This document shows, piece after piece, positions 1 to 31,032 of a stretch of 31,032 bases of DNA (position 1 is the first letter of the stretch; each line of letters begins with the position of its first letter). The stretch is from a virus, in the IMG/VR virus record IMGVR_UViG_3300027730_000096, positions 1-31,032 of that record. The stretch is one strand, 5' to 3'. The notes below the pieces were generated by a model. The model had not been told where the DNA came from and made no database searches. It saw only the letters and a program-made list of their open reading frames with translations. The translations under genes and the position numbers were made by a program.

Positions 1-211
1 TGCCGGACGCGCCAGTCACAGAAACCGTAGCCGTGCCACCCAGCACCACATCGAGCGCTGCCGCGTTGTAATTCTCCGGCACATCCCACGTGGTGTAGGC
101 GGTTCCAGAGGTCAACCCAGAGGTCAAAACAGCGCTGGTCGGCAGGGTGCCATCAGCCGTGTTGTACGTCTGGATAACGAGGTTTTTGTTGGCGGTGATG
201 CTATTGCTCAT
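1..211 (-). CDS. Virion/tail structural protein, N-terminal part only
   Basis: An open frame begins with ATG at 211 and runs off the left edge without a stop, giving 70 visible residues starting MSNSITANKNLVIQTYN. The visible part is rich in Thr, Ser, Gly and Val, as expected for a beta-structured phage tail or decoration protein. I do not recognise a named family. The ATG overlaps the TGA of the 621-residue gene upstream (TGATG), the same junction used throughout this cluster, which supports the start. It is the last gene visible in the virion operon and follows the two ejection proteins, so a tail-associated role is plausible but inferred from position only. Confidence 0.7.
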   Translation of the reverse strand, partial: MSNSITANKNLVIQTYNTADGTLPTSAVLTSGLTSGTAYTTWDVPENYNAAALDVVLGGTATVSVTGASG

Positions 212-2076
212 CAGATCTTCTCATTCGCAATTGCGAGGGCCTTGGTGATGGCCTCATCTGGAACGTTCAGCAGCGGGCTGGTCCCGTCACTATGCCTGTT
301 TTTCGCCTGCTCTGCAGCCCTAATAAGCTTTTCCGCAACAGACCCCGGATTGCCCACGCGACCACCGCTTTGGCGCCCAACGCGACCACCTGCAAACATA
401 CTGCCCTGCACGGGGGATGGCTCGGTCTTGATGATCGGGTTTTCCTCGTTGCCGACTTGGCTAAGAATATTGGTGACAGGAGGTGCCAGAGCGCCGCCCG
501 CGACGTCACCAGCGCGGCGTGCCAGCCCATATCCGTATGTAAGGTGACCGGCCACTTTTGGAGACGTTCCTGCCAGCGCCAGCGCGGCGTGAGGAACACC
601 AAAGCCCAACGATGTACCAGCGATGCCGCTAAGCGCAAGGTTCTGAATTTTATTTGCCCAGTCGGGCAGCACCTCGCGCACGGTCGCGCCCGCGATAATC
701 TCGGGTAGGTACTTGCCCGAAGGCGTGTTCCTGAGAAGGCCGAATAGGTGCTGGTTCTTGTCCTTTTGGATCGAGCGCACCAGCTTCGACATCTTGGCAG
801 CGGTTGAGCTACGCGAGCTTCCAAACTCAGCGGCAAGGTCTTTCGCGTCTTTACGGTACTGCTGCCACATATCCATCATTTTTGCATATTCAGGCTGGGC
901 ATCCGCGATGGTCTTTCGGACTGATTCAGGAACCTTCCCCATGGCCCCCTTCGCACGCGAGTGCATCAATCCGTCCATGAGATCGCTGTAGCCGACCTTC
1001 ATGTTGTGCAGGCCTGCCGCAGACATGTCGCGCCGATTGTAAAGCCGCCGCTCCATTTCGTTGAGGATATCGGCCTCGCGCGGGAAATCGTCGCTGACCC
1101 ACTCGCCAGACGGCTTTCGGTACGCCTGAAGCTCACTTGCTGCATTACCGATTGAAAGCTCAATGCCGCTCGGGTCCAACTGCTGCGTTGTCAGCCCCGC
1201 CTTGCTACGTGCAAAGTCATCGCTGATGCCCTTGCCCATCTCGTTAACGCTATCTTCCAGCATCTGCGGAAGAGCCGTATTCAAGCTTTCATCGCCCCAA
1301 GCTCCCTTAAAAAAGGCAGCGTTTGCGCCAGCATCGCCTTTGCGCGCCGTGCTCTCAATAAGGTCGAGCGCGGCCTTTGAGGATCCGGAAGTGCCACCAA
1401 GAATTCCCTTGGACAGGCCGCCTCCAAAATCAGTCACCTTGCTTGCTGCACTCATGGCTAACTGCGTCGGATCAAGCGCCGACAGCGCAGTCTCTGCCAG
1501 CTTCCCGGCCTTAGAGAGGCCTGCGGCGCGACCAGCCACACCTACAACGGGGGCGACTGAGGCAACATCCATACCGACGGCGAACGGGTCAGTGGCCAGC
1601 GTCTTCTTCAGCCCGGCGGCGCCGTCAAACAGGTCGCCATAGCGCTGGCCATATTCTTCTCGCAGGGCATTGAAAGACGCTTCGTCCTTCGCCTTTTGTG
1701 CGGGATCCTGCTCCATGAAGTAGCCAGCACCGGCAGAGAGCGCGCCCTTCCCAAGCTCGCCGAGGGCGCCAACCGTTTCAACCGGGTTCATGATGGCTTC
1801 GCCAACATCGCCGATGGTTTTAACAAAACTGCCCGGGGCTGCTGCGAGCATTCGTCCCCCGACCTCACCCCAGCCCATTTTGCCGTAATCAGGCTCCGCC
1901 TCTGGCGCGGCGGAGGCAGGGGCAGCGGATCCGGGGGTGACGCTGTTAGTGGGGACGGAAACAGATTTTGAGGAATCAGACCCATACGCCGGTAGCGCTG
2001 GGAAGCGCTTAGCTAACTCCTTGAGCCTGTCTTCAATAGGCATTTCCTTTTTCGGTATAAGCCACGAGTTTTCCAT
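211..2076 (-). CDS. Internal virion / DNA ejection protein (621 aa)
   Basis: The 621-residue product is Ala/Gly-rich and mostly helical by composition. It has a Pro/Ala/Ser linker near residues 35-62 and two weakly hydrophobic stretches (around 160-187, TDPFAVGMDVASVAPVVG, and around 480-510). These are features of proteins carried in the capsid and ejected into the envelope by podoviruses. The C-terminal 75 residues contain FAGGRVGRQSGGRVG, then a helical segment ending ITKALAIANEKI. The GG-basic motif recurs in other proteins of the window. The gene directly follows the giant transglycosylase-bearing ejection protein (TGATG junction), with GGGAGG about 10 nt upstream of its ATG. Position and composition support an ejection role; I recognise no enzymatic domain. 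Confidence 0.75.
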   Translation of the reverse strand: MENSWLIPKKEMPIEDRLKELAKRFPALPAYGSDSSKSVSVPTNSVTPGSAAPASAAPEAEPDYGKMGWGEVGGRMLAAAPGSFVKTIGDVGEAIMNPVETVGALGELGKGALSAGAGYFMEQDPAQKAKDEASFNALREEYGQRYGDLFDGAAGLKKTLATDPFAVGMDVASVAPVVGVAGRAAGLSKAGKLAETALSALDPTQLAMSAASKVTDFGGGLSKGILGGTSGSSKAALDLIESTARKGDAGANAAFFKGAWGDESLNTALPQMLEDSVNEMGKGISDDFARSKAGLTTQQLDPSGIELSIGNAASELQAYRKPSGEWVSDDFPREADILNEMERRLYNRRDMSAAGLHNMKVGYSDLMDGLMHSRAKGAMGKVPESVRKTIADAQPEYAKMMDMWQQYRKDAKDLAAEFGSSRSSTAAKMSKLVRSIQKDKNQHLFGLLRNTPSGKYLPEIIAGATVREVLPDWANKIQNLALSGIAGTSLGFGVPHAALALAGTSPKVAGHLTYGYGLARRAGDVAGGALAPPVTNILSQVGNEENPIIKTEPSPVQGSMFAGGRVGRQSGGRVGNPGSVAEKLIRAAEQAKNRHSDGTSPLLNVPDEAITKALAIANEKI

Positions 2077-5000
2077 CAGACATTACCTCCCGAGACGAAG
2101 TATCGATAAAGTTTTGGCGGGATTTCGGTTCTGCCCAGAGCTTGCTGTAAAAGGAACTGAGTTTCTTCTGGATTTCCAACGGTCATAGCCTCTTTTATAT
2201 ATCGCGAAGTCGCTGGGTTAGCCAGCAGGTCGCGTAGGTAAGCCACCTCCTGCTTGTACACACTGTCGTACAACCGATTAAACTCGGCCCCCGCAGGGAG
2301 AAGGATCTTTGACGTAGTTTGATCCGCAAAGGCATTATAGAACGACGACCGATCAACAGCGCGCTGATTGTCCACCATAAGCGTGGCCATAACCGTAGCA
2401 GCCGCAATCGGATCCTGCTCAATGTTTGGCATCATACTCGCCGCAGCAGACAGGGCGTTATAGCTGTCCTGATTGGACGCGTTGACCAAGTTGTTGGCCT
2501 GAGCAAATCTCAACTTGTCAAGAATATCTGTCTGCGTAGGCATGTCGGAGAACGCGCCTAACCCCAAGCTTTGGCTGAACAGGTTAAGTGCCTTGGTAAC
2601 CGCAGCGCGCCCAGTACCCTGAGAGCCAAAGCTTTCAAGCGGCGGCGCCCCCATAAGTGCCGAAACGGCCATCGCCTGTTCAGCGATGTTGAGGCGGTTA
2701 TCACCTGCGGTGGATCCGCCAGCTGTAACATCGTTAAGCAGTGCTGCAGAGTTGGTGATCAGATCTCGGGCATTTGGAAAACTCATCATCTTGTCTGCGC
2801 GATCCGTCGCCCCGCTGGCGCGCGGATCCCATATAACATTGGTGGGCTCAGGAGGCTGGCTAGGCGAAACTGGCAAGCCAGAGCCCCCCTCAACCCCGCG
2901 AGGAGCCGTCTGTACGGTCTGCAAAACCGAGGAGACATCGCCTGTGTTAGCGGTGCCGTTCTGGGCCGCAAGCTGCTGCCCTGCGAGGCGCAGGGTGTTA
3001 TTCAGAGCTTCGCCGCCTGCAATGGGCGCGGACGGGTTGGAGAGCCAGTCGTTGAACTGCTGCAGGCCGCCATTGGCGGTGACCACATAATTTACGCCGC
3101 CGATATCTTTTACGCTGCCAGCAACATTCTGGATATCCTGCCCACGGGTCAGTGCCTGTGTCTGTCCGATATCAGCAAGCTGCTTCTGGCGGTTCATGTA
3201 GGCCTCGGCACCGCCACCCACGCCCTCGAGGAGGGCTGTGCCGAGGAACCGGCTCTGCGATCCAGCCATCTTCCCCAGCCCCGACAGGAACGGCAGGATG
3301 ATGTTCTCTGGGCCGCCAGCCTTATCGATCATCTTCTCAAAAAAGTTCTTGCCGCCCAAGCCGGGTGCAGGCTGATCGTTGCGACCGCCATCGGGGCGGG
3401 TGTCGGTTACGTCGCGTGGCGTGATCGCCGCGTCTCCAAGCGTGCCGCCACCGCCGCCACCAGCGCCGGAGCTTTTTTCATTGGTCCATTGCTTAAACTC
3501 ACCAACGGTCATGCCTTTAAGAAACGGATTGGCCGCGATGTAGGACGCCGGAACCAGCCCTTCGATAGCTGCTCCGTCTGGGGCACCAAGCACCCTTGGG
3601 GCGGCACCTGCCCCAAGAAAATGTGCAGCATAAAGATTGCCGTTAGTTGCGGGAATTCCGGCGTTTTTAAGCTGGCGTTCGTTCTCCGCCGTCAATAGGC
3701 GGATTGCCCGCTCCTGTTGCGCCGGATCGTTCTTCCCGTCAGCAGTGAGACCGGCCTCTGGATACTTTTGCGCCAACGCGCTCCACGTCCCGTCCGTGAA
3801 CCCATAGTAGCCAGAAGCAGATGACGTGTTACTCTGAGCGTTGGGGTTATTCCCGCTCTCAGCCGCTTTGATCGCTGCGTAATAAGCCTCGCGATCTCCA
3901 GTTGCGACTGTAGGCGTCCCGGCCCCAGTACCCGCCGCCAGCCCCGGCTCCGCCCCAGCGATAGGCTCTGCAGCGTTTGCCACGTCACGCGTAAGATCAG
4001 TCTGGGCGGGATCGGCAGCAACAATTGCATCGGTAACAGGTGCGGTGGCCGAAGCTGCGCCAAGGCCGCTACGATCAAGGCGCGGCATGGGGATTGGGCG
4101 AAGGAACGCGGCAGCATCAGAGTAATTCGCGCTCGACAACCCCGGCTGCACGCCAGTAAACCGACGATCAAGAGAGACGTTGCGAAGCTCGCTGCCGGGA
4201 TAGGGAGCTACATACGGCGGCAGCGTGAGGCCGCTCTCGACCGGCTCCATCACCTCCCTCCGTGGTTCACCAATCTGAGCCCCCTGCACGCTGGCGTACG
4301 GGTTAAAGACAAGGTCTCTGCGGTCTTCTGCACGCGCTCCCACCGTGCGGGACCAAGCCGGGGGTCCGCCGACAATATAATCAGGCTGCGGGGTAGGGGT
4401 TGGATATTTTTGTGAATATTCGGTTGGACCCAAGAAGAGTTTGTCTACGGCCCGCATATAGGCGTCAGAAACGGCTCCCGGGGTGTTAGCTGCAATACGC
4501 ATGGCTGTGTCAACAGCGCTATCCTCACCTGTGGCCGCGCCGAACATCCTAGTTGCAGCATCCGGCTCCACATAGGCAGCGTTCTCCGCCTGCGCCCCCT
4601 GAACGCTAGCGTTTGGGTTAAACGGGAGTTCCCGAACACGAGGAGAAAATGGCTTCTTCTGGACCCCCTGAACGCTCGTGGGCTGGTCAAGGCGTCGATT
4701 AGTCACAATGTCGTCACTGACAAGCTGAACCGGTCTACCCGCTTCCTTTTCAGCGTTGTAAACGCTGGTGTAGTACTCCCTCCGGATGCGATCAGCATCA
4801 GCGGCGGAAAGGCCAGCCGGTGTGGCTACGGCCAAATTTGGGGGAGCGGCGCGCAACTGCCTCAGAAATTCCGCTTCAGCCGGGCTCACATAAACAGCAT
4901 TTTCCGTCTGAGCCCCCTGAACGCTGGCGTTTTGGTTAAACGGAAGCCCCTGAATACGGGCATTCCCCGTCTGATCCCCCTGAACGCTAGCGTTTTGGTT

Positions 5001-6767
5001 AAACGGAAGCCCCTGAACACGAGTGGGAGCCACATAGGCTGAATTTTCCGTCTGATCCCCCTGAACGCTAGCGTTTGGGTTAAACGAAAGCCCCTGAACA
5101 CGAGTGGGAGCCACATAGGCTGAATTTTCCGTCTGACCCCCCTGAACGCTAGCGTTTGGGTTAAACGAAAGCCCCTGAACACGGGCAGGCGCGGCTACGC
5201 CTCCCGGTGGCAAGTTCTGCGGACCCGGATCGAACAACGCGGACGCGGGCCTTCTGCGCGCATACGCCTCCAGTTCTTGCTCCAAAGTGAGGGGTTCCGG
5301 ACGGCCACCGCCTGCATACCCATGCCGCCCGGCAACGCCGCCGTTGGCCATGAACATGCCAACGATTTTTGCAAGGTCAGCAACCTTGCTCAGGCCGCTC
5401 TGGGGCTGCTGCGGATCTTTCGGCTGCAGCAATTCAGGCGTCTTCTGGGAGCCGGGTTCCTGAACGGGCACATAACCCGTATTCTGGGGGTCGTAAGGCA
5501 TGCCGCCAGCGGCAAGCCCAGAGCGGGGTGTGCCGCCGCGCGAGAAGCCATATTTTTCCCACATATCACCGGCTTTTTCGCCGGTATCGGCGAGGCTCGA
5601 TGCCATGTCCACGATGTCGGAGGCATCGGTCTGGCTCGGGCCTTGAACCGGGTCAGCGATCATAAGCTGGCCGACCGGCAAGTTCGCCTGCGGGACAAAC
5701 CCGCCAGAGCCGATCCCCGCAGAGCCCCGCCCATAAGCCCCTGCATTCGGATCCATGCCGCCAAAAAGCTGCTGCATGACCATGGTGGCGTAGTCCGTCT
5801 GCGGGGAGCCGCCATCAGCGTAGCCCTCGCCCATATGCCCCGCACTGACGTGACCGCCCATGCTCTCGGGGACGAGGCCGCCGCGCCGATAGCCGACGTC
5901 CTCGATGACCTTTCCGCCACGCTTGAGGCCAGAGAAGAACCCGGCAGGCGACGTCGTCTGAGTGGTCGAGCCGGACAGCGCACCAGTGCCCATGCCAATG
6001 TTGCCAAGGAACTGAGTGGTTTGGAACGGATAGGCGCGTTCCTGCTGGTACTGGTTGTAGAGGGCAGACTTACCGGCCTGCTCAGTCTGCTGCTCCTGCG
6101 TGCCAGCGCCGAGAAGCGCCTGACTTCCAGCCAGCGCGGCGCCCTGAGCGCCAGCACCCAACTGACCGATGCTCTGCCCGCCCTGCAACAGCCGGGCAAG
6201 GTTCGCCTGACGGGACGCAAGATCCGCGCTCTGCTGCTGCTGGGCAACGCCCTGAGCCTGCATGTAGCCCTGATTGAGCAGGTTGCCGATGGTGCTGCCC
6301 ATGCCCATCATCTGCTGCCGGTTCAGGTTGGCAGCGGCAATGCCGGACCGGTCGCCAAACCCAGCGCCTGACTGGATGGCCGTGCCAAGCGCGCCAGACA
6401 TATCCTGCCGGTTTTGCTGACCCAGAATGTCCGCCGTGCTCTGCACCACGTTTTGCAGATACGGGCTCATGTACTTGTTGGTGTCGAGTTCGCCCAGATT
6501 GGCGGGGCCCATACCCCCCAATGTCGCTGCTGCACCAGCCTGAAAATACGGCTGCGCCATGCCGGACGCCTGCCCGATCTGGCCAATTGCCGCATTTTGC
6601 GTTTCCGTCATCGGCGCAACAAAGGCACTTGGGTCGTAGGAATATGCCTGAAACGGCGTCGAGGCTACGTTTTCGGCCCTTGCGTTGACCGCGTTATAGC
6701 GAGCCAGCACCTCCGGCGGAATCTGTACGGAAGATGTGGAGGTTTGAGTTTTTCCGCCGCCAGACAT
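2076..6767 (-). CDS. Giant ejection/internal virion protein with lytic transglycosylase domain (1563 aa)
   Basis: This is the largest gene in the window. Residues 1-270 form a Gln/Ala/Gly-rich helical domain of the kind found in phage DNA-injection proteins. Residues about 283-330 and 473-490 carry GG-basic motifs (LKRGGKV, GYRRGGLV, YADGG). Residues 528-629 are four tandem copies of an Asn/Gln/Val-rich repeat, with degenerate copies up to about residue 836. Residues about 958-1100 match soluble lytic transglycosylases: the likely catalytic Glu970 lies in AAESGNNP, followed by GYYGFTDGTW and an AAHFLGAGAA motif. The C-terminal 400 residues are helical and unassigned. The inferred role is capsid-carried protein that helps DNA cross the cell wall by cutting peptidoglycan, comparable to T7 gp16. 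Its ATG overlaps the stop of the GNAT gene (TAATG). Confidence 0.88.
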   Translation of the reverse strand: MSGGGKTQTSTSSVQIPPEVLARYNAVNARAENVASTPFQAYSYDPSAFVAPMTETQNAAIGQIGQASGMAQPYFQAGAAATLGGMGPANLGELDTNKYMSPYLQNVVQSTADILGQQNRQDMSGALGTAIQSGAGFGDRSGIAAANLNRQQMMGMGSTIGNLLNQGYMQAQGVAQQQQSADLASRQANLARLLQGGQSIGQLGAGAQGAALAGSQALLGAGTQEQQTEQAGKSALYNQYQQERAYPFQTTQFLGNIGMGTGALSGSTTQTTSPAGFFSGLKRGGKVIEDVGYRRGGLVPESMGGHVSAGHMGEGYADGGSPQTDYATMVMQQLFGGMDPNAGAYGRGSAGIGSGGFVPQANLPVGQLMIADPVQGPSQTDASDIVDMASSLADTGEKAGDMWEKYGFSRGGTPRSGLAAGGMPYDPQNTGYVPVQEPGSQKTPELLQPKDPQQPQSGLSKVADLAKIVGMFMANGGVAGRHGYAGGGRPEPLTLEQELEAYARRRPASALFDPGPQNLPPGGVAAPARVQGLSFNPNASVQGGQTENSAYVAPTRVQGLSFNPNASVQGDQTENSAYVAPTRVQGLPFNQNASVQGDQTGNARIQGLPFNQNASVQGAQTENAVYVSPAEAEFLRQLRAAPPNLAVATPAGLSAADADRIRREYYTSVYNAEKEAGRPVQLVSDDIVTNRRLDQPTSVQGVQKKPFSPRVRELPFNPNASVQGAQAENAAYVEPDAATRMFGAATGEDSAVDTAMRIAANTPGAVSDAYMRAVDKLFLGPTEYSQKYPTPTPQPDYIVGGPPAWSRTVGARAEDRRDLVFNPYASVQGAQIGEPRREVMEPVESGLTLPPYVAPYPGSELRNVSLDRRFTGVQPGLSSANYSDAAAFLRPIPMPRLDRSGLGAASATAPVTDAIVAADPAQTDLTRDVANAAEPIAGAEPGLAAGTGAGTPTVATGDREAYYAAIKAAESGNNPNAQSNTSSASGYYGFTDGTWSALAQKYPEAGLTADGKNDPAQQERAIRLLTAENERQLKNAGIPATNGNLYAAHFLGAGAAPRVLGAPDGAAIEGLVPASYIAANPFLKGMTVGEFKQWTNEKSSGAGGGGGGTLGDAAITPRDVTDTRPDGGRNDQPAPGLGGKNFFEKMIDKAGGPENIILPFLSGLGKMAGSQSRFLGTALLEGVGGGAEAYMNRQKQLADIGQTQALTRGQDIQNVAGSVKDIGGVNYVVTANGGLQQFNDWLSNPSAPIAGGEALNNTLRLAGQQLAAQNGTANTGDVSSVLQTVQTAPRGVEGGSGLPVSPSQPPEPTNVIWDPRASGATDRADKMMSFPNARDLITNSAALLNDVTAGGSTAGDNRLNIAEQAMAVSALMGAPPLESFGSQGTGRAAVTKALNLFSQSLGLGAFSDMPTQTDILDKLRFAQANNLVNASNQDSYNALSAAASMMPNIEQDPIAAATVMATLMVDNQRAVDRSSFYNAFADQTTSKILLPAGAEFNRLYDSVYKQEVAYLRDLLANPATSRYIKEAMTVGNPEETQFLLQQALGRTEIPPKLYRYFVSGGNV
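4881..5186 (-). repeat. In-frame tandem repeat, 27-27-21-27 codons
   Basis: Four head-to-tail copies lie inside the giant ejection gene: 5186-5106, 5105-5025, 5024-4962 (6 codons shorter) and 4961-4881. The protein core is RVQGLxFNxNASVQG followed by xQTENxAYVxP. At DNA level the segment with CTAGCGTTTxGGTTAAACG on the plus strand is nearly identical in the copies near 4982, 5063 and 5144, so the expansion looks recent. Diverged copies of the core recur near 4601 (LPFNPNASVQG), 4676 (SVQG only) and 4287 (VFNPYASVQG). The repeat separates the N-terminal domain from the transglycosylase domain. Confidence 0.93.
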
Positions 6768-7273
6768 TATGGGATCTCGCTAGAAGGTTCACTGAGGCCG
6801 GTCTTGGCCCCATAGAGAAAATAAACGCCCGCAGGCTGCCCAAACATCCGCTCATACAAGCGGATTTTCGCTTCAGTCCGACTGTTTGAAAGCACCCCGA
6901 TGGATAGCGGAATAGCAAGCTCTTCGGATGCCGTTTTCGCAAACTCACACAGCTTGCGAGCCCGCCCACCCTTCGCATTGCGATATTCTGGCGCCACAAA
7001 CACCGCTCGTTCTTCCAGTACAGGTTCGTTACTGTACCATAGCTCTCCAAAAACCAAAAGGATGGCACCCTCAAAAGCCTCACCCGGCTTTCCAATAATC
7101 CCCACGATGCCGTTCTGCCTAGTTAGAGCGCCCCACATGGTTTTGAGGAGCTTGGAGACGTCCGGAGAGATGAATGCGTTTTCCTGCGTGGCGTCGAGCG
7201 CCAGATGCATCATGCCGTCGAGGTCTGCGGGGGTTCCTACACGAACTGCGGGGGCGTCTGCGGCGTCTGTCAT
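6767..7273 (-). CDS. GNAT-fold N-acetyltransferase-like protein (168 aa)
   Basis: The sequence fits the Gcn5-related N-acetyltransferase fold. The N-terminus RVGTPADLDGMMHLA resembles the first strand and helix. The core strand VFVAPEYRNAKGGRA (residues 91-105) is the motif A region that binds the acetyl-CoA pyrophosphate. The segment 125-145, with SRTEAKIRLYERMF, resembles motif B. Length is typical for a single GNAT domain. It lies between a YVIP-motif protein and the giant ejection protein, with AAGGA a few bases upstream of the ATG, so it is expressed with virion genes. The substrate is unknown; a virion protein or a host target are both possible. Confidence 0.8.
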   Translation of the reverse strand: MTDAADAPAVRVGTPADLDGMMHLALDATQENAFISPDVSKLLKTMWGALTRQNGIVGIIGKPGEAFEGAILLVFGELWYSNEPVLEERAVFVAPEYRNAKGGRARKLCEFAKTASEELAIPLSIGVLSNSRTEAKIRLYERMFGQPAGVYFLYGAKTGLSEPSSEIP

Positions 7274-7283
7274 GCTTTTTCCT

Positions 7284-7874
7284 TTAATCGACTTTTGGAC
7301 CCGGTAGCTTTTGCAGGGTCTTGATGGTCTTTGCCCGATACTTTTTTACAAACTCATCCAGAATCCGATGCCCATGATCGAGGTCTCCTTCCCCGATCTT
7401 CACGACATCCTCCGGAGGAATAACGTACTCTCCACCAGCGGCGACGATGGGTACCGTGTCCACCTCACCACCACCCGCCTTTGCGACGGCGGGCGCGCCG
7501 TAGGGCATATCTGTCCCCATGTCTGGAGCCCCATAGGGCATTTTGCTGAAGATGCTGTTGGCAATCTTGAACCCGGCCATGCTGTTGCCTTCGCCCATGG
7601 CCGAGATGATATCCGCCGGGATCACGTAAGATCCGGACTTCACGTGCATCGGCAGGTGGTCGGTGCGCCCCGCCACGTTGCTGTGGATCGGCCCAACATG
7701 AACCTTCCCCATGGCGCCGCCCTTGGGCCGTGCGACCTGAGCTCCTCGAGCATGGGCCTCGCGCGCCGTGCTCAGCGCAGCCGCGACGGCCTGCCCCTGC
7801 GGGCGCCCGGCATGCATCATCTCGCTGATGTTGCCGCTTATCGTTTCTTGCGAATTTCCGCGCTTAAGGGGCAT
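7284..7874 (-). CDS. Phage protein with duplicated YVIP/GEG motif (196 aa)
   Basis: The N-terminus MPLKRGNSQETISGNI and the following HAGRPQGQAVAAAL segment (22-34) match a small-protein motif common in phage virion clusters; I know no function for it. Residues 71-109 and 138-176 are an internal duplication: both contain a P-hydrophobic pair, a Gly, YVIP, about eight residues, GEG and then a short helix. Between them MPYGAP occurs twice (112-117 and 122-127). KAGGGEV at 132-138 is another GG motif of the kind found across this window. The gene ends with a basic helix. It sits 1 nt after the upstream tail gene. It is not long enough to be a tape measure protein. Confidence 0.72.
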   Translation of the reverse strand: MPLKRGNSQETISGNISEMMHAGRPQGQAVAAALSTAREAHARGAQVARPKGGAMGKVHVGPIHSNVAGRTDHLPMHVKSGSYVIPADIISAMGEGNSMAGFKIANSIFSKMPYGAPDMGTDMPYGAPAVAKAGGGEVDTVPIVAAGGEYVIPPEDVVKIGEGDLDHGHRILDEFVKKYRAKTIKTLQKLPGPKVD

Positions 7875-7875
7875 G

Positions 7876-9156
7876 TCACACCGTTAGGTTGTAGAAGGCG
7901 ATATTGCCGACGGCTACGCCCGTGCTGCCGGGGGCGGCTGTTCCTTGAACCGTGCGGGCTGCAAGCGTGTAAGTGTCGCTCACGTTAGCCAACGAGACGC
8001 CAAGCTGCAAATCCCAGTTATATCCAGTCGCGATATCGGCACGGGTCGTCGACTGGGAAGACGAGGTCGCAAAGCTCTGTTGCACGATCTGATCTGTGGA
8101 GGCAATTGTCATCGCCGTGGCAGCCGTGTCCACGTCCACCTGCCCGGCGGCGAGCGTCGTGGCCCATGAGGCGCTGGTCAAGCCGGTGGCATTCTTAACC
8201 AAAGCAAACTCATAATTTCCATTAACCAGCGGGAAACCCGTGATGGTAGACGGGATCACGATTGCGCCCAGAAAGCTTGAATTCAACCGTATGGAGATCA
8301 GGGGCACAAAGGTGGTCGTAAGGGTTGACGCGTAGGCCGTCGTCACCCGAGCGTTATACACCTGCGACGTTTGCTCGTAGCCGCCCTCGGAGATGACGCT
8401 GGAGCAGATTTGCTGCAGGACAGGCGTGCCAGTGGGGATCGACGTGGTCGTGATTTCGAACCGCAGCGGCAGGATGGCCGTGGTCATGTAGACGAACGAC
8501 TGGACGTTGGCATTATTGAAGACGTGGGCCACGTACAGCACGCCATTAACGACGAACCCGCAACGGACGGAACCTACGCCAAGCCACTCGATGTCGATGA
8601 AGAAGATCTGTGTCTTGGTCAGATCGAGCGTTACGCCGCTGGGGCCGGTGCCGTCGAATTTATCAACGTTCCATGCGCTCTTCAGCGCCTGCTGGTTTCC
8701 AGAACCGCTGGCGCTTCTGATGTTGAGTGAAACGCCGGTCGGCAGAGACGTGCCGGTCTGCTCCAGATAGATGCCGTTGGCGGTGTTGAATAGCCCGACG
8801 CGCTGCGTCAGCCCCGTCTGCTGCGCCGCCAGAGTGAAGGTCTGAAGCGTTAGCAGGCTCTTCCCGGGCTGGTACGGAAACGACCGGAACGACTGGGCTA
8901 CGGCGCTGCCTGCAGAACTGGTGCCGGGATAGAGGTTTATCGACGATTTGTCGGTCTGCCATGTCGTCGTCGCGCCCGTCCCAGACGTCGAATAGCTATA
9001 CGCCGGGTCAGCGGCATAGCGCGACTGGCTGTCGAACAGTGTGTACGGCTGAGACACCCGGAGGCGCCCGAAAGCGTCAACGGTCGTGCCGCCAAACGCG
9101 ACATAACTGGGTTTCGTGCTGGAGGATCCATACGGCGGATAAACGGTGATGGCCAT
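7876..9156 (-). CDS. Tail/virion structural protein with FGRLRVSQPYTLFD motif (426 aa)
   Basis: The product begins MAITVYPPYGS and soon carries AFGRLRVSQPYTLFDSQ, a sequence I associate with a recurrent phage structural protein family. The rest is Thr/Ser/Val-rich and beta-like, with almost no Lys. The frame is open 32 codons further upstream, but that stretch lies inside the preceding gene and has a different composition. The ATG at 9156 shares one base with the preceding TGA (TGATG), so I choose it. Position downstream of the nozzle gene and of a 137-residue beta protein suggests a distal tail component. No catalytic residues are recognised. Confidence 0.8.
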   Translation of the reverse strand: MAITVYPPYGSSSTKPSYVAFGGTTVDAFGRLRVSQPYTLFDSQSRYAADPAYSYSTSGTGATTTWQTDKSSINLYPGTSSAGSAVAQSFRSFPYQPGKSLLTLQTFTLAAQQTGLTQRVGLFNTANGIYLEQTGTSLPTGVSLNIRSASGSGNQQALKSAWNVDKFDGTGPSGVTLDLTKTQIFFIDIEWLGVGSVRCGFVVNGVLYVAHVFNNANVQSFVYMTTAILPLRFEITTTSIPTGTPVLQQICSSVISEGGYEQTSQVYNARVTTAYASTLTTTFVPLISIRLNSSFLGAIVIPSTITGFPLVNGNYEFALVKNATGLTSASWATTLAAGQVDVDTAATAMTIASTDQIVQQSFATSSSQSTTRADIATGYNWDLQLGVSLANVSDTYTLAARTVQGTAAPGSTGVAVGNIAFYNLTV

Positions 9157-20420: not shown

Positions 20421-20840
20421 TTAATGTTCCTTGTGAGAGAACAGAGGCAAGCCGCCCCAAACTGGTTTGCAATTACCGCAGGCGCACTGACCTTTTAGAT
20501 ATAAAGCCGCAAATTCCAGAAGCTCGGGGTCATCTTTAAAGTGCCCTAAACCCAGATTGCAGTTTGTGCATAAAGCCCCACGCACCATGCCCGTGGCGTG
20601 ATCGTGATCAATAACGACAAAAACAGTTTGTCCGCATATTACACATACGCCGGTTTCTCTGGCGGCGTACGCCCTATTATGCTCTTCAGGCTTGATGCCA
20701 TTAGGGAGCCTAGTCTGTTTTCTGTATTCAGACCGACACGTGCGGCACCAGCTATCCAACCCATTGGTTTTCCGCTTATGCGGTGGAAAAAATTCCAGTG
20801 TTTCCGGTTTTTGCTGCTTGCAGCGGGCACATGTTAGCAT
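20421..20840 (-). CDS. Endonuclease VII-type HNH nuclease (139 aa)
   Basis: Residues 78-95, DHDHATGMVRGALCTNCN, are the signature of the recombination endonuclease VII/HNH family. The DHDH metal-catalytic core is flanked by zinc cysteines C66/C69 and C91/C94. An N-terminal zinc ribbon (C4, C7, C32, C35) and a third CxCxxC cluster (119-124) are also present. T4 endonuclease VII resolves branched DNA before packaging; relatives act as homing or nicking enzymes. I chose ATG at 20840 because AGGTGG lies 8 nt upstream; a GTG four codons earlier lacks this. It overlaps the upstream gene by 7 nt. Its GC content is lower than most neighbours, which hints at separate acquisition. Confidence 0.87.
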   Translation of the reverse strand: MLTCARCKQQKPETLEFFPPHKRKTNGLDSWCRTCRSEYRKQTRLPNGIKPEEHNRAYAARETGVCVICGQTVFVVIDHDHATGMVRGALCTNCNLGLGHFKDDPELLEFAALYLKGQCACGNCKPVWGGLPLFSHKEH

Positions 20841-21109
20841 TCGACATCCCACCTTCTAAGCGACTTATTGATCCTGCTGTTTGGATCATTAGCCACTTTA
20901 TCAGAAGTGAGCTTATTTTTCATGCCGCACATACGTTTTTTGAAATTTTCTCGCCTTTCGGCGTCAGCATCAGATTTTTGAGCCTGTTTTGAGGTAACCG
21001 GCCTCTTGATGTCGTGCCCCGCTGCCTTCAGCGAAGCGCGCCCCTTGTCGTTCAGGCCGCCGCTGGGGTCTTTCCCTGCTGAGCGGGTCCAAGCTGGTGT
21101 CTTAGCCAT
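20834..21109 (-). CDS. DUF6321-like basic phage protein (91 aa)
   Basis: Starts MAKTPAWTRSAGKDPSGGLN, continues DKGRASLKAAGHDIKRPVTS, then RRENFKKRMCGMKNKL and ends LRRWDVEC. The order (MAKTPAWxR..GK.PxGGLNxKGRxS, then RRxxFxxRMxGM, then LRxWxC) is that of a short phage protein family that I recall as DUF6321, of unknown function. It is strongly basic. It lies just after a terminator and overlaps the endonuclease VII gene by 7 nt. A DNA-binding role would fit its charge but is not shown. Confidence 0.82.
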   Translation of the reverse strand: MAKTPAWTRSAGKDPSGGLNDKGRASLKAAGHDIKRPVTSKQAQKSDADAERRENFKKRMCGMKNKLTSDKVANDPNSRINKSLRRWDVEC

Positions 21110-21152: not shown

Positions 21153-21449
21153 TTAGTTCATCTGGATCTTGCGCCCGGCGGGGGCGGTACCCGAAGCAGC
21201 CGAAGACAGCGGGTTCATGTTGGAGCCCGTGCGGCCACCCGACTTGCGAGCCGTGCGCCCACCGTGCTTCTTGGCGGCCATGCCGTCAGCCTTGCCGACA
21301 GTCTTGCCACCGTGCTTACGCTCTTCGGCAGCGTCGTTCACCTTGCTCTGGTAGGTGTAACGCTGGTTCTTGTGAGCGAGATCCTGCTCATATTCCTTAG
21401 TGCCAACAGTGGCTTCGCCACCCGTAGCACGACCCTTGCGACCCTTCAT
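21153..21449 (-). CDS. Basic GGR-motif protein following the capsid genes (98 aa)
   Basis: Very rich in Lys, Arg, Gly and Ala. It starts MKGRKGRATGGEATVGTKEY and has an acidic/basic helical stretch (YEQDLAHKNQRYTYQSKVND). It then carries KHGGKTVGK, KKHGGRTARKSGGRTGSN and ends AGRKIQMN. TARKSGGRT is close to MARKSGGRT and LARKSGGRA in the 404-residue protein at 26153-27367. AGGAGG lies 5 nt upstream of the ATG. It is the last gene before a terminator in the capsid unit. A role inside the capsid, such as contacting DNA or other GG-motif proteins, is a hypothesis. Confidence 0.78.
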   Translation of the reverse strand: MKGRKGRATGGEATVGTKEYEQDLAHKNQRYTYQSKVNDAAEERKHGGKTVGKADGMAAKKHGGRTARKSGGRTGSNMNPLSSAASGTAPAGRKIQMN

Positions 21450-25876: not shown

Positions 25877-26061
25877 CAACGTTTTAAGACATTCTCACGT
25901 GCTGCCTCGAGCAAGGTCAGCGCCATGCGCAACCCCTCGATCTGCCCTGTGAGTTTTTTGTAGTCCTGCATGTCAGCCAGCAGGCCAGCGCAGACGCTGT
26001 CACGAAGCGCCTCGATATTCTGCTCGATGAGCTTCTGAAGCTCCGAAACAAGCCTCTCCAT
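25876..26061 (-). CDS. Short helical protein (61 aa)
   Basis: A 61-residue, almost wholly helical peptide (MERLVSELQKLIEQNIEALR, GQIEGLRMALTLLEAARENV) with heptad spacing of Leu/Ile, likely a coiled-coil oligomer. GGAGAGA precedes the ATG, and the TGA overlaps the co-chaperonin start. No family is recognised. It could be a small head-assembly factor; the coupling to the co-chaperonin is the only functional hint. Confidence 0.72.
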   Translation of the reverse strand: MERLVSELQKLIEQNIEALRDSVCAGLLADMQDYKKLTGQIEGLRMALTLLEAARENVLKR

Positions 26062-26088
26062 ACTCTCTCCGTCTCTCCATATTTGGTT

Positions 26089-27388: not shown

Positions 27389-29467
27389 TTACGGGCGTCC
27401 CCGTTTAAGCTGCCTTGCGATTTTCACGGCATTCTGGACAGCATCAGTGCCGAATTTCGTGTCCCCAGCCACTTTTCCACCTTTAGCATAGATTTCGCCT
27501 GTTATAATCCGCTTCAAAGCGTCTTCAGGCGCAATTCCATGCACGGCAGCGCGTGAAGCTATGTGATCAGCAAGCATTTCGATCTTGGGAGCACCGATTG
27601 GAGAGGTAACACCGGTAGAACCAGAGCCAGCGCCCCACAAACGCCCCTGCGCAGGCACAGATTGCAGACCAACCTGAGCAGCAATTCGATTTTTGAACCA
27701 TGGCGCGACCTGCTGGTACTCGGGCATTTTCATCGAAACGCCCGGGTCGGAGCTTGTCCGCGTGTCGCCCATGCCAAGGATGCGGGTAAAGTGCGCGTCG
27801 GGCACCGGCAATGTAGTTTGAAATCCTGTCTGAGGCACGCCAGACGCCGGAATGTAGGTCGGCACTTTTGGAGTGCCCATGTCTACCTTGCCGCTCTGAA
27901 GAAAACTCTTCATCGGTCCGGAATGCGCGGTAGGATGGTACATGTGGCCAACGACATCGCGAATATCTTCGGGGAAATCAGCCCCACGCCTGCTTACCGG
28001 AAGCCCGGCATACTTTTCAAAATCACCAAAACGACCCTTGCCAGCGAGGTAATATGCCGCCATGCCGCGATTAATCTCGGTTGGCACCTCAGACCCGGGG
28101 CTCGCCATGCCCGTCAGCGTGTTTTGCATGATAAACCGCCTCTTAGCCTCTTCGGGGCCAAGTTCAAGCTCCATGGCCCGGTAAAGAGGGTTCATAACGT
28201 ACCACGCATCCATGCCATGGCGCAGGACCTGATGCTTTCCGGCCTCGTCAAGAATATCGATCAGGCGCTGCTCGTTCTTTTTATTTATAATCTTTTCGGT
28301 GGCCGCAGACCCCTTCGGGTTGGGGGCCATGGCGAGGCTGGGCTCCATATTTCCCACGCGGTTTTCAGCCATGTCGTAAAGATCAGCGCGGGTAACGTTG
28401 AAAAGCTTCTTCAGGTTTGGGCTTTCAGGGGCAACGCGAGAGGCGGCTTCAGCCGCCATCTGCCTTGGGTTGCCGTAAATGCCGGGATATTCGTATCCAA
28501 TAGGATCTTTAACCGTAGTGCGGCCAAAGCCACCACCGCCGCTAGGCGGCTTGCGCCCAGACGGGGTCATGCGGTTATAAATATAAGACCGCTCAACATC
28601 GCTTAGCTTGTGGAAGTCGGCTAATTTTTCGAGGTTGAACCGGTAGCCTTGCTCCTGCGCCGCCCGCGTAAATGGTGCAGCAATGTTATCGACAAGCCCT
28701 CGGAATAGATCGGATGGCTCGCCGGAGCTTCCTTGAAGCCGTGCGCGAGCGCTCTGTCCACCCACGACTTTTTTGAGGTAGTCTTTTGCATCTGTGAGAT
28801 CCCCATTCGTGCGGGCCATAAAACGTTCAGGCATATTAGCAGCCTGACCGATGGCCGCAATGTCATCGACAAATTTATCGTGCTCTTCATCGGGCCCAAA
28901 ATGGGAGAACTTTGCTGCCTTACCATCCCGAGTGAACGTAAGGTCGCGGCCACGAGCGGACGCTTCCTTCATGATGCTCATGCGCTCAGCAGGCGACAGC
29001 GTCTTGCCGTTGCCGAGAAGCAGGGTCGGCGTGCCGGACTGAAGATCAACTTCCGGGTGGTGGATTGAATGCACTGCCGCATCCTGCAACATCCCAAACC
29101 CAAGGGCCGAAGCCAGCCGCTTTGCCTTTTGGGGGGTCATGTTGGGGGCGTCAATGGTAAACGAAGGCTCTGGTTCCCCCAGCCACGTCCCCGTCACAGG
29201 CGTGATCGTGTAGTCACGGACGCCAAAATGCTTGGCCACGAAGTCTCGCACGCTTTTGCCATCAAGGATCTGCAACGCTGAGCGCGACACCGCGTCAATG
29301 TTTTCCTGATTGATAGTTTTGCCTGAGATCTGGCCGTAATTAACGCCGGGCTTGGGCGAAACCTGCGCTGCCGGGACGTTTTCCCTTGAAAATGTCTCAG
29401 CCAGCTTCGACGGCTTGAACGACTTGGCCGCAGAAAGCGCCTGAGAAATTTTATTGTCGTCGTCCAT
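27389..29467 (-). CDS. Large unknown virion-region protein with GG-tag C-terminus (692 aa)
   Basis: The N-terminal part contains KRLASALGFGMLQDAAVHSI, then GKTLSPAERMSIMKEAS and LTFTRDGKAAKFSHFGPD. This order resembles an accessory domain I have seen in large phage polyvalent proteins. Residues 220-560 are mixed helical with TFSG-type linkers and many Pro/Gly. No catalytic motif is recognised. The last 33 residues are YAKGGKVAGDTKFGTDAVQN followed by AVKIARQLKRGRP, closely parallel to the end of the neighbouring gene. The ATG shares a base with the upstream TAA (TAATG). It lies upstream of the scaffold, so it may be a protein carried in the head. Confidence 0.75.
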   Translation of the reverse strand: MDDDNKISQALSAAKSFKPSKLAETFSRENVPAAQVSPKPGVNYGQISGKTINQENIDAVSRSALQILDGKSVRDFVAKHFGVRDYTITPVTGTWLGEPEPSFTIDAPNMTPQKAKRLASALGFGMLQDAAVHSIHHPEVDLQSGTPTLLLGNGKTLSPAERMSIMKEASARGRDLTFTRDGKAAKFSHFGPDEEHDKFVDDIAAIGQAANMPERFMARTNGDLTDAKDYLKKVVGGQSARARLQGSSGEPSDLFRGLVDNIAAPFTRAAQEQGYRFNLEKLADFHKLSDVERSYIYNRMTPSGRKPPSGGGGFGRTTVKDPIGYEYPGIYGNPRQMAAEAASRVAPESPNLKKLFNVTRADLYDMAENRVGNMEPSLAMAPNPKGSAATEKIINKKNEQRLIDILDEAGKHQVLRHGMDAWYVMNPLYRAMELELGPEEAKRRFIMQNTLTGMASPGSEVPTEINRGMAAYYLAGKGRFGDFEKYAGLPVSRRGADFPEDIRDVVGHMYHPTAHSGPMKSFLQSGKVDMGTPKVPTYIPASGVPQTGFQTTLPVPDAHFTRILGMGDTRTSSDPGVSMKMPEYQQVAPWFKNRIAAQVGLQSVPAQGRLWGAGSGSTGVTSPIGAPKIEMLADHIASRAAVHGIAPEDALKRIITGEIYAKGGKVAGDTKFGTDAVQNAVKIARQLKRGRP

Positions 29468-31032
29468 TACCGCCTCGTGAGGTTGCGGGCCAGCGCCATG
29501 GCTTTGTGTACCATAGGATTGTCGTTTAGAGCCATACCGCCGCGCTTGTACATCGGAAGGCCCTTCTTGACGGCGTCCCGCATGCCGTCGGTGATTTCGA
29601 GGGCGTGCCCCTTGTAGCCCTCAGTATCGTCGCCACCCGACGCAGACGGCAGCGCGTGCGAGAACATTTGCACCCCGGGATGATCAGGGTCTAGGCTCTT
29701 GGCCAGCTTGTTCATCTGGGTCGGCAGGATCTGATCGTAGAACGACTTCATGCCGCTCCCCTGCTCCCCGTCGAGGCCGTACATATCGGCATTCGCCTGC
29801 CCGGGGGAGAGCACCAGCTTGTTGTAGCCGCCGTTTACCGCCTCGGTGAGCGCATGCTTGAGCGCGAGGCTAGTCCATCCCTGCGTTGAATTGACAAAGG
29901 GGCCCTGCGGCGGCTTGTCGGGGCCAGACGGACCATTAGCGCTTGTATCCTGAAATCCGTGCTTGCGCCCTGCCTGCGCCCAGTCAGACTGGATCTCCTC
30001 GACGTGCAGGGCTCGCGGGGCCTTGTAGCCCTTCATCACATTGTTGCGCCAACCCTTAGCGCGGGACAGGTTCTGCGCCTCTTCCTTGGTGATGGTTCCT
30101 TTGCTCAGCGCCAAATCAGCGGCGCCACTGCCCCAGTTGGCGGGCTCAGATCCGAGGGACTGGGTGAGACCGGGGTCGGACAGCATCTTCTCGACTGTTC
30201 GATCATGCGCCTCTAGGTCGGGTGGCTCGATGCGGTCGCCCATGCGGATGTGCGCCACCACATTCTTGTGGCCGGGCCAGTGCTTTTGCTCCCTGAAACT
30301 GTAGCTGGTCTCGGGTATCTTCAGCAGGTGCTCCCGGTAATTGACGCTCCCGGGCAGGGTGTAATCCTCGAACTGAGCGGGCTGCTCAGCGTCGGGATCG
30401 GATGCGTCGTAGCTGGAGTGGTCTTCGCTCAGCAGCTTATCCACACCGATGTTGGGCATCTTTCTGTAGAAGTGCTGGAAGAGTTCCTCCGAGGTCACGC
30501 TGGGCTTGCCCGAGAACGCCTCGTCGAAGCCTGACTGGGTGAACTCCTCGGGCTTGACGCCCGCCTTTGCCAGCATGGCGCGCATCTGCTGCGGGGAGCC
30601 CTTCTTCTGGCTCAACTGCCGCGCAGCTTCGGCGCCACGAGAGTAGAAATTCTTGAAATTGACGACCCGCTCAGGCAATTTTCCGGTTGCGCCACCGTCG
30701 GCATAGCCAATGCTGCCCCCATCAGCCTTATGAGCCTCAGTTTCGAGCCCCGGAAAGCCCATGGCGCTCATGATCTGCGCCACGGGATGGGTGGAAACGT
30801 GGTTTGGCTCGATTTTGCCGCCGGTTGCAGCGTGCTGCATGGCCTGCATCACGTCCTGATGCGTGGTTTCCTCGTCCCCGGCCTTATCCCACACCGCATG
30901 ATGCGCGTCCGCAAGCGGCTTCCACTGCCAATCCTCGAGGTTCTTGGTCTTGGGGTCGGTGTAACCGCCAAGAAGGCCCCCGCCTGCCTTCCCGGGGCGA
31001 TACGCCTTTGCGGTCAGGAGGGCCTTGCGGGT
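29467..31032 (-). CDS. Polyvalent-protein-like large protein, 5' end outside the window (522 visible aa)
   Basis: The frame is open to the right edge, so the N-terminus is missing; a GTG at 30894 is internal and not a start. Visible residues 1-46 include KAYRPGKAGGGLLGG. GG motifs follow (ADGGSIGYADGGATG near residue 125). Around 338-346 is RALHVEEIQSDWAQAGRKHG, then GWTSLALKHALTEAVNGGYN with LVLSPG and SFYDQILPTQMNKLAK. These blocks are hallmarks of an uncharacterised domain in large phage polyvalent proteins. The end is KRGGMALNDNP then AMALARNLTRR. Its function is unknown. It may be injected with DNA or belong to the virion interior. Confidence 0.78.
   Translation of the reverse strand, partial: TRKALLTAKAYRPGKAGGGLLGGYTDPKTKNLEDWQWKPLADAHHAVWDKAGDEETTHQDVMQAMQHAATGGKIEPNHVSTHPVAQIMSAMGFPGLETEAHKADGGSIGYADGGATGKLPERVVNFKNFYSRGAEAARQLSQKKGSPQQMRAMLAKAGVKPEEFTQSGFDEAFSGKPSVTSEELFQHFYRKMPNIGVDKLLSEDHSSYDASDPDAEQPAQFEDYTLPGSVNYREHLLKIPETSYSFREQKHWPGHKNVVAHIRMGDRIEPPDLEAHDRTVEKMLSDPGLTQSLGSEPANWGSGAADLALSKGTITKEEAQNLSRAKGWRNNVMKGYKAPRALHVEEIQSDWAQAGRKHGFQDTSANGPSGPDKPPQGPFVNSTQGWTSLALKHALTEAVNGGYNKLVLSPGQANADMYGLDGEQGSGMKSFYDQILPTQMNKLAKSLDPDHPGVQMFSHALPSASGGDDTEGYKGHALEITDGMRDAVKKGLPMYKRGGMALNDNPMVHKAMALARNLTRR

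Follow-up and report, generated by a model that had tools for sequence, protein, structure and literature searches.

Why should two adjacent large proteins of a virus, unlike in the rest of their sequence, end in the same short helix? The question is raised by IMG/VR record IMGVR_UViG_3300027730_000096, the whole of which (31,032 nucleotides, hereafter the window) was analysed; this 31-kb sequence is the late region of a tailed phage, with its genes on the minus strand. The two proteins, P1 and P2, are followed by a basic protein, P3, and a 621-residue ejection protein encoded elsewhere in the window has a related end. As described below, the same helix recurs at both ends of large exchangeable proteins in related phages, and is retained where the body between the ends has been replaced. 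Judging from sequence, it is probably a virion-incorporation label, comparable to a capsid-targeting signal, borne by exchangeable polyvalent cargo and by the ejection protein.

In the window, P1 ends in YKRGGMALNDNPMVHKAMALARNLTRR and P2 in AKGGKVAGDTKFGTDAVQNAVKIARQLKRGRP, as reported in an earlier note on this DNA, and the rest of the two proteins is indeed unlike, with no significant BLASTP similarity (best E 3.5). The related end which that note ascribed to the 621-residue protein is also present (PDEAITKALAIANEKI); the spacing between GG and helix, given there as 10-18 residues, has to be corrected to 8 in P1 and 12 in P2. Taken from the window alone, the likeness of the P1 and P2 tails is weak and barely above chance, and becomes strong only with relatives: the best ungapped 14-mer is matched by 18 of 1000 shuffles, and the pair ranks eighth among 465 pairs of window tails, seven others being equal or better. 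The same helix, previously overlooked, is found at the N-termini too: P2 starts with MDDDNKISQALSAAKSFKPSK, while the start of P1, MKKITRKALLTAKAYRPGKAGGG in relatives, falls only partly inside the window, at 31032.

Close relatives were obtained by direct searches, and an alignment of the portal protein led to 66 loci in viral contigs; a bacterial metagenome bin contributed a further locus, and another relative is MW202675, a complete circular genome whose coat protein is 87.5% identical. In most loci with enough downstream sequence, between one and three large variable genes, the occupants of what we call the cargo slot, come after the portal gene, and then comes P3, which in relatives is likewise basic and contains many (K/R)xGG repeats; in L050 and L067, P3 comes directly after the portal. 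Slot genes, lying between the portal and the P3, GroES, scaffold and coat genes, are therefore placed among virion genes. No large genes occupy the portal interval in the distant isolates HTVC027P, 023Pt_psg01, DSL-LC04, QDWS535 and Pag-Yong1, and the cargo slot therefore appears to have expanded within the window's clade; nor did the distant isolates examined show a P3-type gene in the stretch from portal to GroES. The annotation of DSL-LC04 includes a "Pam1 adaptor protein", which suggests that the group is one of Pam1-like podoviruses. Sequence searches of the PDB with coat and portal found no match.

The earlier note had regarded homologues without the tail as fatal to its proposal; the relatives show instead a tail retained even where the remaining protein is replaced. 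P2 of relative L025 is 100% identical to that of the window. When it is compared with P2 of L006 and L024, the strongest matches cover 23-33 residues at the C-terminus (E 8e-10 for L025/L006, 2e-6 for L025/L024) and the next best within about 20 N-terminal residues, the bodies sharing weak segments only (E 0.001 for L025/L024, 1e-5 for L006/L024). P1 measures 673, 770 (the full-length protein of L025), 834 or 1093 residues, with the same N and C ends throughout. Both ends are also common to proteins of 1419 residues in L043 and 1683 residues in L044, and the C end is common to L057 and L058. Between L025 and L024, the P1 tag VxKAMALARNLTRR has undergone six synonymous changes with one residue changed, and the N tag behaves alike, indicating constraint at the protein level.

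Across loci, slot proteins, about 450 to 2100 residues long, begin and end with a short helix, often beside GG, for which the consensus [VI]-x-x-A-[LMV]-x-[LIA]-[AT]-[RK] can be written; examples are MKKITRRALLTAKAYRPGKASGG, MNNDRAKAIRSALLTAYNVGKAGGG and MADTVKRALDLVSGY at the N-terminus, and GGLIVDKAMALARNLTRR, GGPVEGDVVRRALNLTRQARS, DDTVAKALRLTAQRGR and GGAVANHAINLAREINSS at the C-terminus. A regular expression, written after the examples had been seen and run on a slot set that then included some late genes, matched 19 times in the first 45 residues, against a shuffle mean of 0.84, and 15 times in the last 45, against 0.54; control-gene ends gave 0 of 46 and 0 of 45. A matrix had been fixed earlier from eight examples, taken from the window lineage and MW202675, and was applied to held-out proteins, a match being called terminal within 40 residues of an end. 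The best match over the whole protein was terminal in 11 of the 20 other non-redundant slot proteins, against 1.8 expected, with a P value (1e-7) which is optimistic, since the loci are interrelated and in several proteins up to 27% of 6-mers are common to MW202675; here, as in all the tag statistics, related loci are treated as independent. Late genes of the same loci showed no excess (6 of 40 terminal, against 9.4 expected). Terminal scores of at least 9 bits were reached by half of the slot proteins (10 of 20), by 2 of 95 late genes from the same loci and by 1 of 129 unrelated phage genes. The tag was not clearly found in the distant isolates HTVC023P, CRP-901, phiM5, Caulobacter phage RW and MW202796.

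Internal copies adjacent to GG are not significantly enriched overall, and are clear in L058 alone. There, a polyvalent protein of 2121 residues (2140-8505 of that locus) carries the helix [IV]xxA[LMF]xVVRxLP at residues 7, 506, 755, 1248 and 1565, the first copy lying at the N-terminus and the other four inside the protein, at module junctions; three of these four come immediately after GG, and the C-terminus has a variant. These are five matches to a pattern derived from the same protein, none being found in 300 shuffles. Every module looks as though it were separately labelled, in this one protein and not as a general rule. The proposal of a C-terminal sorting or packaging signal, from which the work started, has thus held as regards the tail being kept in homologues, but not as regards its being confined to the C-terminus; packaging itself is the probable explanation, for which arguments are given below.

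The ejection protein is distantly homologous to phiM5 gp31 (tblastn E 1e-6, 72% of the query), which is annotated as an internal virion protein and was detected in the particle proteome. Comparison of homologues shows the tail to be the most conserved part of the protein, and in 7 of 12 related records searched the match is limited to its C-terminal part. The tail consensus is GGR…T..LL..PDexIxKALxxAnxxI. A DNA pattern for PDExIxKALxxA was matched at 80 loci at least in IMG/VR viral contigs; among the matches listed, 67 of 80 lie within 12 residues of the stop (59 tails, seven cases of a recurrent 108-residue open reading frame without the tail, and one short open reading frame), and the 61 longer proteins have bodies falling into seven clusters with no BLAST links, and tails forming a single one. 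In 34 aligned ejection proteins every invariant column lies inside the tail; most of them had been picked through the PD-I-KAL-A pattern, which does not include the columns GG, T and LL, and eight sequences not so selected feature the same tail columns. Residues that stay constant are T, L, D, A, L and A. In several ejection proteins the tail is immediately preceded by a transglycosylase or endolysin domain. A matrix built from ejection tails alone has its best match at the ends of 10 of 26 slot proteins, against 2.4 expected (P=4e-5), and at the ends of 6 of 40 late genes, against 9.4 expected: three protein families of one phage thus carry a related terminal helix.

The ejection tail is widespread in environmental viral contigs (L100-L178). 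Searching an isolate-phage collection by tblastn with tail sequences found MW202675 as the only record, which, given this wide environmental spread, points to a phage group almost unsampled by culture. A search of the L083 genome returned nothing.

In the AlphaFold2 model, the ejection protein has a helical body, with a predicted local distance difference test score (pLDDT) mostly above 80 from about residue 240 to 470, then a disordered linker at 484-575, and finally helices at 577-604 and 608-620 (pLDDT about 62-79). The model of P1 places terminal helices, 2-13 and 755-769, beside disordered stretches with low confidence, and supports only the absence of a firm anchoring of these helices to the body. 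Foldseek found no match with E<0.001 for either model; several of the best matches of the P1 body, none significant, are acyltransferase-like (NAT10, TmcA, EsaI).

As to the bodies, Pfam analysis of 23 slot proteins identified ART-PolyVal in 6 members (1.9e-37) and InPase in 3 (3.5e-50), along with LPD23, M15 peptidase, GNAT, cell-wall hydrolase and GP88 matches, and PHROGs added DarB-like antirestriction and minor head protein. In the window itself, P1 and P2 contain no Pfam domain above threshold. As a group, slot proteins unite several domains with quite different activities in a single chain and have their genes among those of the virion, as polyvalent proteins do; Iyer et al. (2017, PMC5512222) predict packaging and injection for proteins with this set of domains.

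According to the explanation that we favor, the ends of P1 and P2 would be short modular helical tags, which recruit exchangeable polyvalent cargo into the head during assembly, with the GG stretches acting as flexible hinges that join tag to body; on the ejection protein the same address would be present in a longer form with two helices. The tag would most likely be bound by one constant head component (portal, scaffold, coat or the neighboring KGG-rich P3), and the cargo would exit with the DNA at infection. The closest experimental precedent, DarB of phage P1, suggests the likeness to capsid targeting, and the held-out test does identify a short terminal peptide, as expected of such a signal, whose carriers would be head cargo. 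Packaging is further suggested by the cargo domains, which belong to the set predicted to be packaged and injected, and by the related tail on a disordered linker of the ejection protein, itself homologous to a particle-detected protein.

Several observations weigh against this explanation. The particle-detected phiM5 gp31 lacks the C-terminal tail, ending in KREAEKKKKGGE, so that the tail does not hold as a general property of the internal-virion-protein family. No clear tag is present at one end in L027, L028, L030, L051 and L065 (C-end). The P2 C tag differs between L025 and L024 by one synonymous and ten non-synonymous changes, although the motif core is retained. Near-identical DNA is found at the ends of swapped genes (97% for P2 of L025/L006, 100% for the second gene of L043/L044), and the DNA identity at some junctions shows a second role of the ends, as recombination flanks. 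Phage P1 Dar proteins have no significant match to the matrix, the best N-terminal score being 5.1 for DarB, reached in 15 of 500 shuffles, with the others at 0.9 or less.

The main rival, which we consider unlikely, sees in the tag a signal for ejection or translocation: by engaging the portal or the ejection conduit it would let the cargo be threaded out together with the DNA, and would play no part in assembly. In favor of this, the ejection protein has the tag in its longest and most conserved form, the cargo genes adjoin the portal, and the tags are terminal and predicted to be flexible; both ends are tagged, however, where one leader would suffice, and known terminal signals on similar cargo, the T4 capsid-targeting sequence and that of DarB, act in packaging. 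A lesser chance is given to a docking or oligomerisation helix, which would tie cargo proteins to one another, or else to P3 or the ejection protein, for stability or stoichiometry, rather than acting as an address: a single phage bears this type of helix on P1, on P2 and on its ejection protein, and one protein has repeated copies, as would fit, but no partner was identified and the tags within one phage are not especially alike. The near-identical DNA at swapped-gene ends, and the overlap of a few bases between the P1 and P2 genes, raise the question of a feature acting at the DNA level, such as recombination anchors or a translation-coupling or ribosome-binding sequence, the peptides mattering little. 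This seems slightly less probable again, because the same helix is encoded by different DNA in different genes, at opposite ends and in unrelated phages, and recombination flanking cannot account for a likeness between different genes or between opposite ends; moreover, the P1 tag has six synonymous changes to one changed residue, and the P2 tail, which stops 21 bases before P3, need not hold the ribosome site of the latter. That basic tails bind packaged DNA non-specifically is very improbable: several tags do end in R/K-rich stretches (TRR, KRGRP) and the neighboring P3 is highly basic, but charge is not a conserved feature, as the constant residues of the ejection tail indicate, and many N tags are hardly basic. 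Chance resemblance of Ala-rich helices, compatible with the modest window-only match (18 of 1000) and with the lack of overall enrichment of GG-adjacent internal copies, is refuted by the shuffle counts (19 against 0.84 at N ends, 15 against 0.54 at C ends) and by the held-out and cross-family tests with their negative controls.

The targeting explanation may be extended, tentatively and with rather less confidence than we place in the label itself, to a general transferable address system, where one head component would read the helix at either end, and sometimes at module boundaries, of swapped anti-host cargo and of the ejection protein, and any protein gaining the helix would become virion cargo. 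How phages choose the effector proteins loaded with their DNA is largely unknown, and keyword searches of the open-access literature found no terminal consensus tag described for polyvalent proteins; if this extended system is real, its helix would be the first consensus delivery tag for them. A recognisable terminal tag would allow the prediction of injected cargo from sequence in many uncultured phages, and the finding of new anti-defence enzymes by their tags.

Some neighboring genes of the window deserve mention, the coordinates of all features being collected in the table below. P3 has a conserved end, YRSYKDMDAGAGSGLGRLEKTEI, and is a possible DNA- or tag-binding head protein; together with a second basic protein it is rich in (K/R)xGG(R/K) repeats, both containing ARKSGGR. 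A 1563-residue protein matches a transglycosylase (phrog_4067, 7e-20) and, N-terminally, a DNA ejection protein (phrog_4287); it contains several GG motifs and no terminal tag. In a 196-residue protein, matching phrog_2423 at its N-terminus, an Ala-rich helix, AVAAALSTAREA, precedes KGG and bears a weak likeness to the tag (score 8.3). A short open reading frame, MERLVSELQKLIEQNIEALRDSV..., resembles by eye the 60-70-residue portal-GroES proteins of distant isolates, and a Cys/His pattern, also seen by eye, marks a probable HNH/endonuclease VII-like nuclease among the late genes.

Table. Features of the cargo slot, the tags and neighboring genes in the window
Feature	Position	Strand	Remarks
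P1	29467..31032	-	Polyvalent-slot protein, cut by window edge; HVEEIQSDW-domain body common to slot proteins of other phages
P1 N-terminal tag	30976..31032	-	TRKALLTAKAYRPGKAGGG; cut by window edge; full start MKKITRKALLTAKAYRPGKAGGG in L025
P1 C-terminal tag	29470..29550	-	YKRGG hinge and helix VHKAMALARNLTRR (29470-29511); kept in L006, L021, L024 and L025 despite differing preceding sequence
P2	27389..29467	-	692 residues; second polyvalent-slot protein; body replaced in relatives
P2 N-terminal tag	29405..29452	-	KISQALSAAKSFKPSK; position-specific scoring matrix match; variants ISRAINAAKK, ISQAIAAARN in L006/L021 and L024
P2 C-terminal tag	27392..27487	-	AKGG hinge and helix VQNAVKIARQLKRGRP (27392-27439); main similarity among P2 of L025, L006 and L024
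P3	26153..27367	-	Basic KGG-rich protein directly after cargo slot; candidate tag partner (speculative)
Ejection/internal virion protein	211..2076	-	621 residues; similar to phiM5 gp31
Ejection-protein C-terminal tail	214..366	-	GGR...T..LL..PDEAITKALAIANEKI, residues 571-621; two predicted helices; sole conserved part among divergent relatives
1563-residue protein	2076..6767	-	
196-residue protein	7284..7874	-	
Probable nuclease	20421..20852	-	
Second basic repeat protein	21153..21449	-	
Short open reading frame	about 25880..26080	-	

The tag can be set beside signals and proteins already known. The T4 capsid-targeting sequence is cleaved by the prohead protease. On internal proteins of T4 it is a short N-terminal address for head cargo (Mullaney and Black, as cited in PMC9024508); the tag, compared with it by description, is also a short terminal address, whereas that of T4, as cited there, is N-terminal only. 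Slot proteins resemble the polyvalent proteins of PMC5512222 in their ART-PolyVal, InPase, LPD23, M15, GNAT and DarB-like domains and in their virion-gene setting, and differ in the shared terminal peptide and GG hinge, neither of which was found described there. DarB of phage P1 is a polyvalent protein encoded beside the portal, the first 30 residues of which target a reporter to the head, and no consensus is seen among the N-termini of the packaged Dar proteins of that phage (PMC9024508). Unlike the DarB signal, the tag helix is present at both ends and is common to several families; like it, the tag is a terminal peptide of no more than 30 residues, and its carriers too are large polyvalent proteins whose genes adjoin that of the portal.

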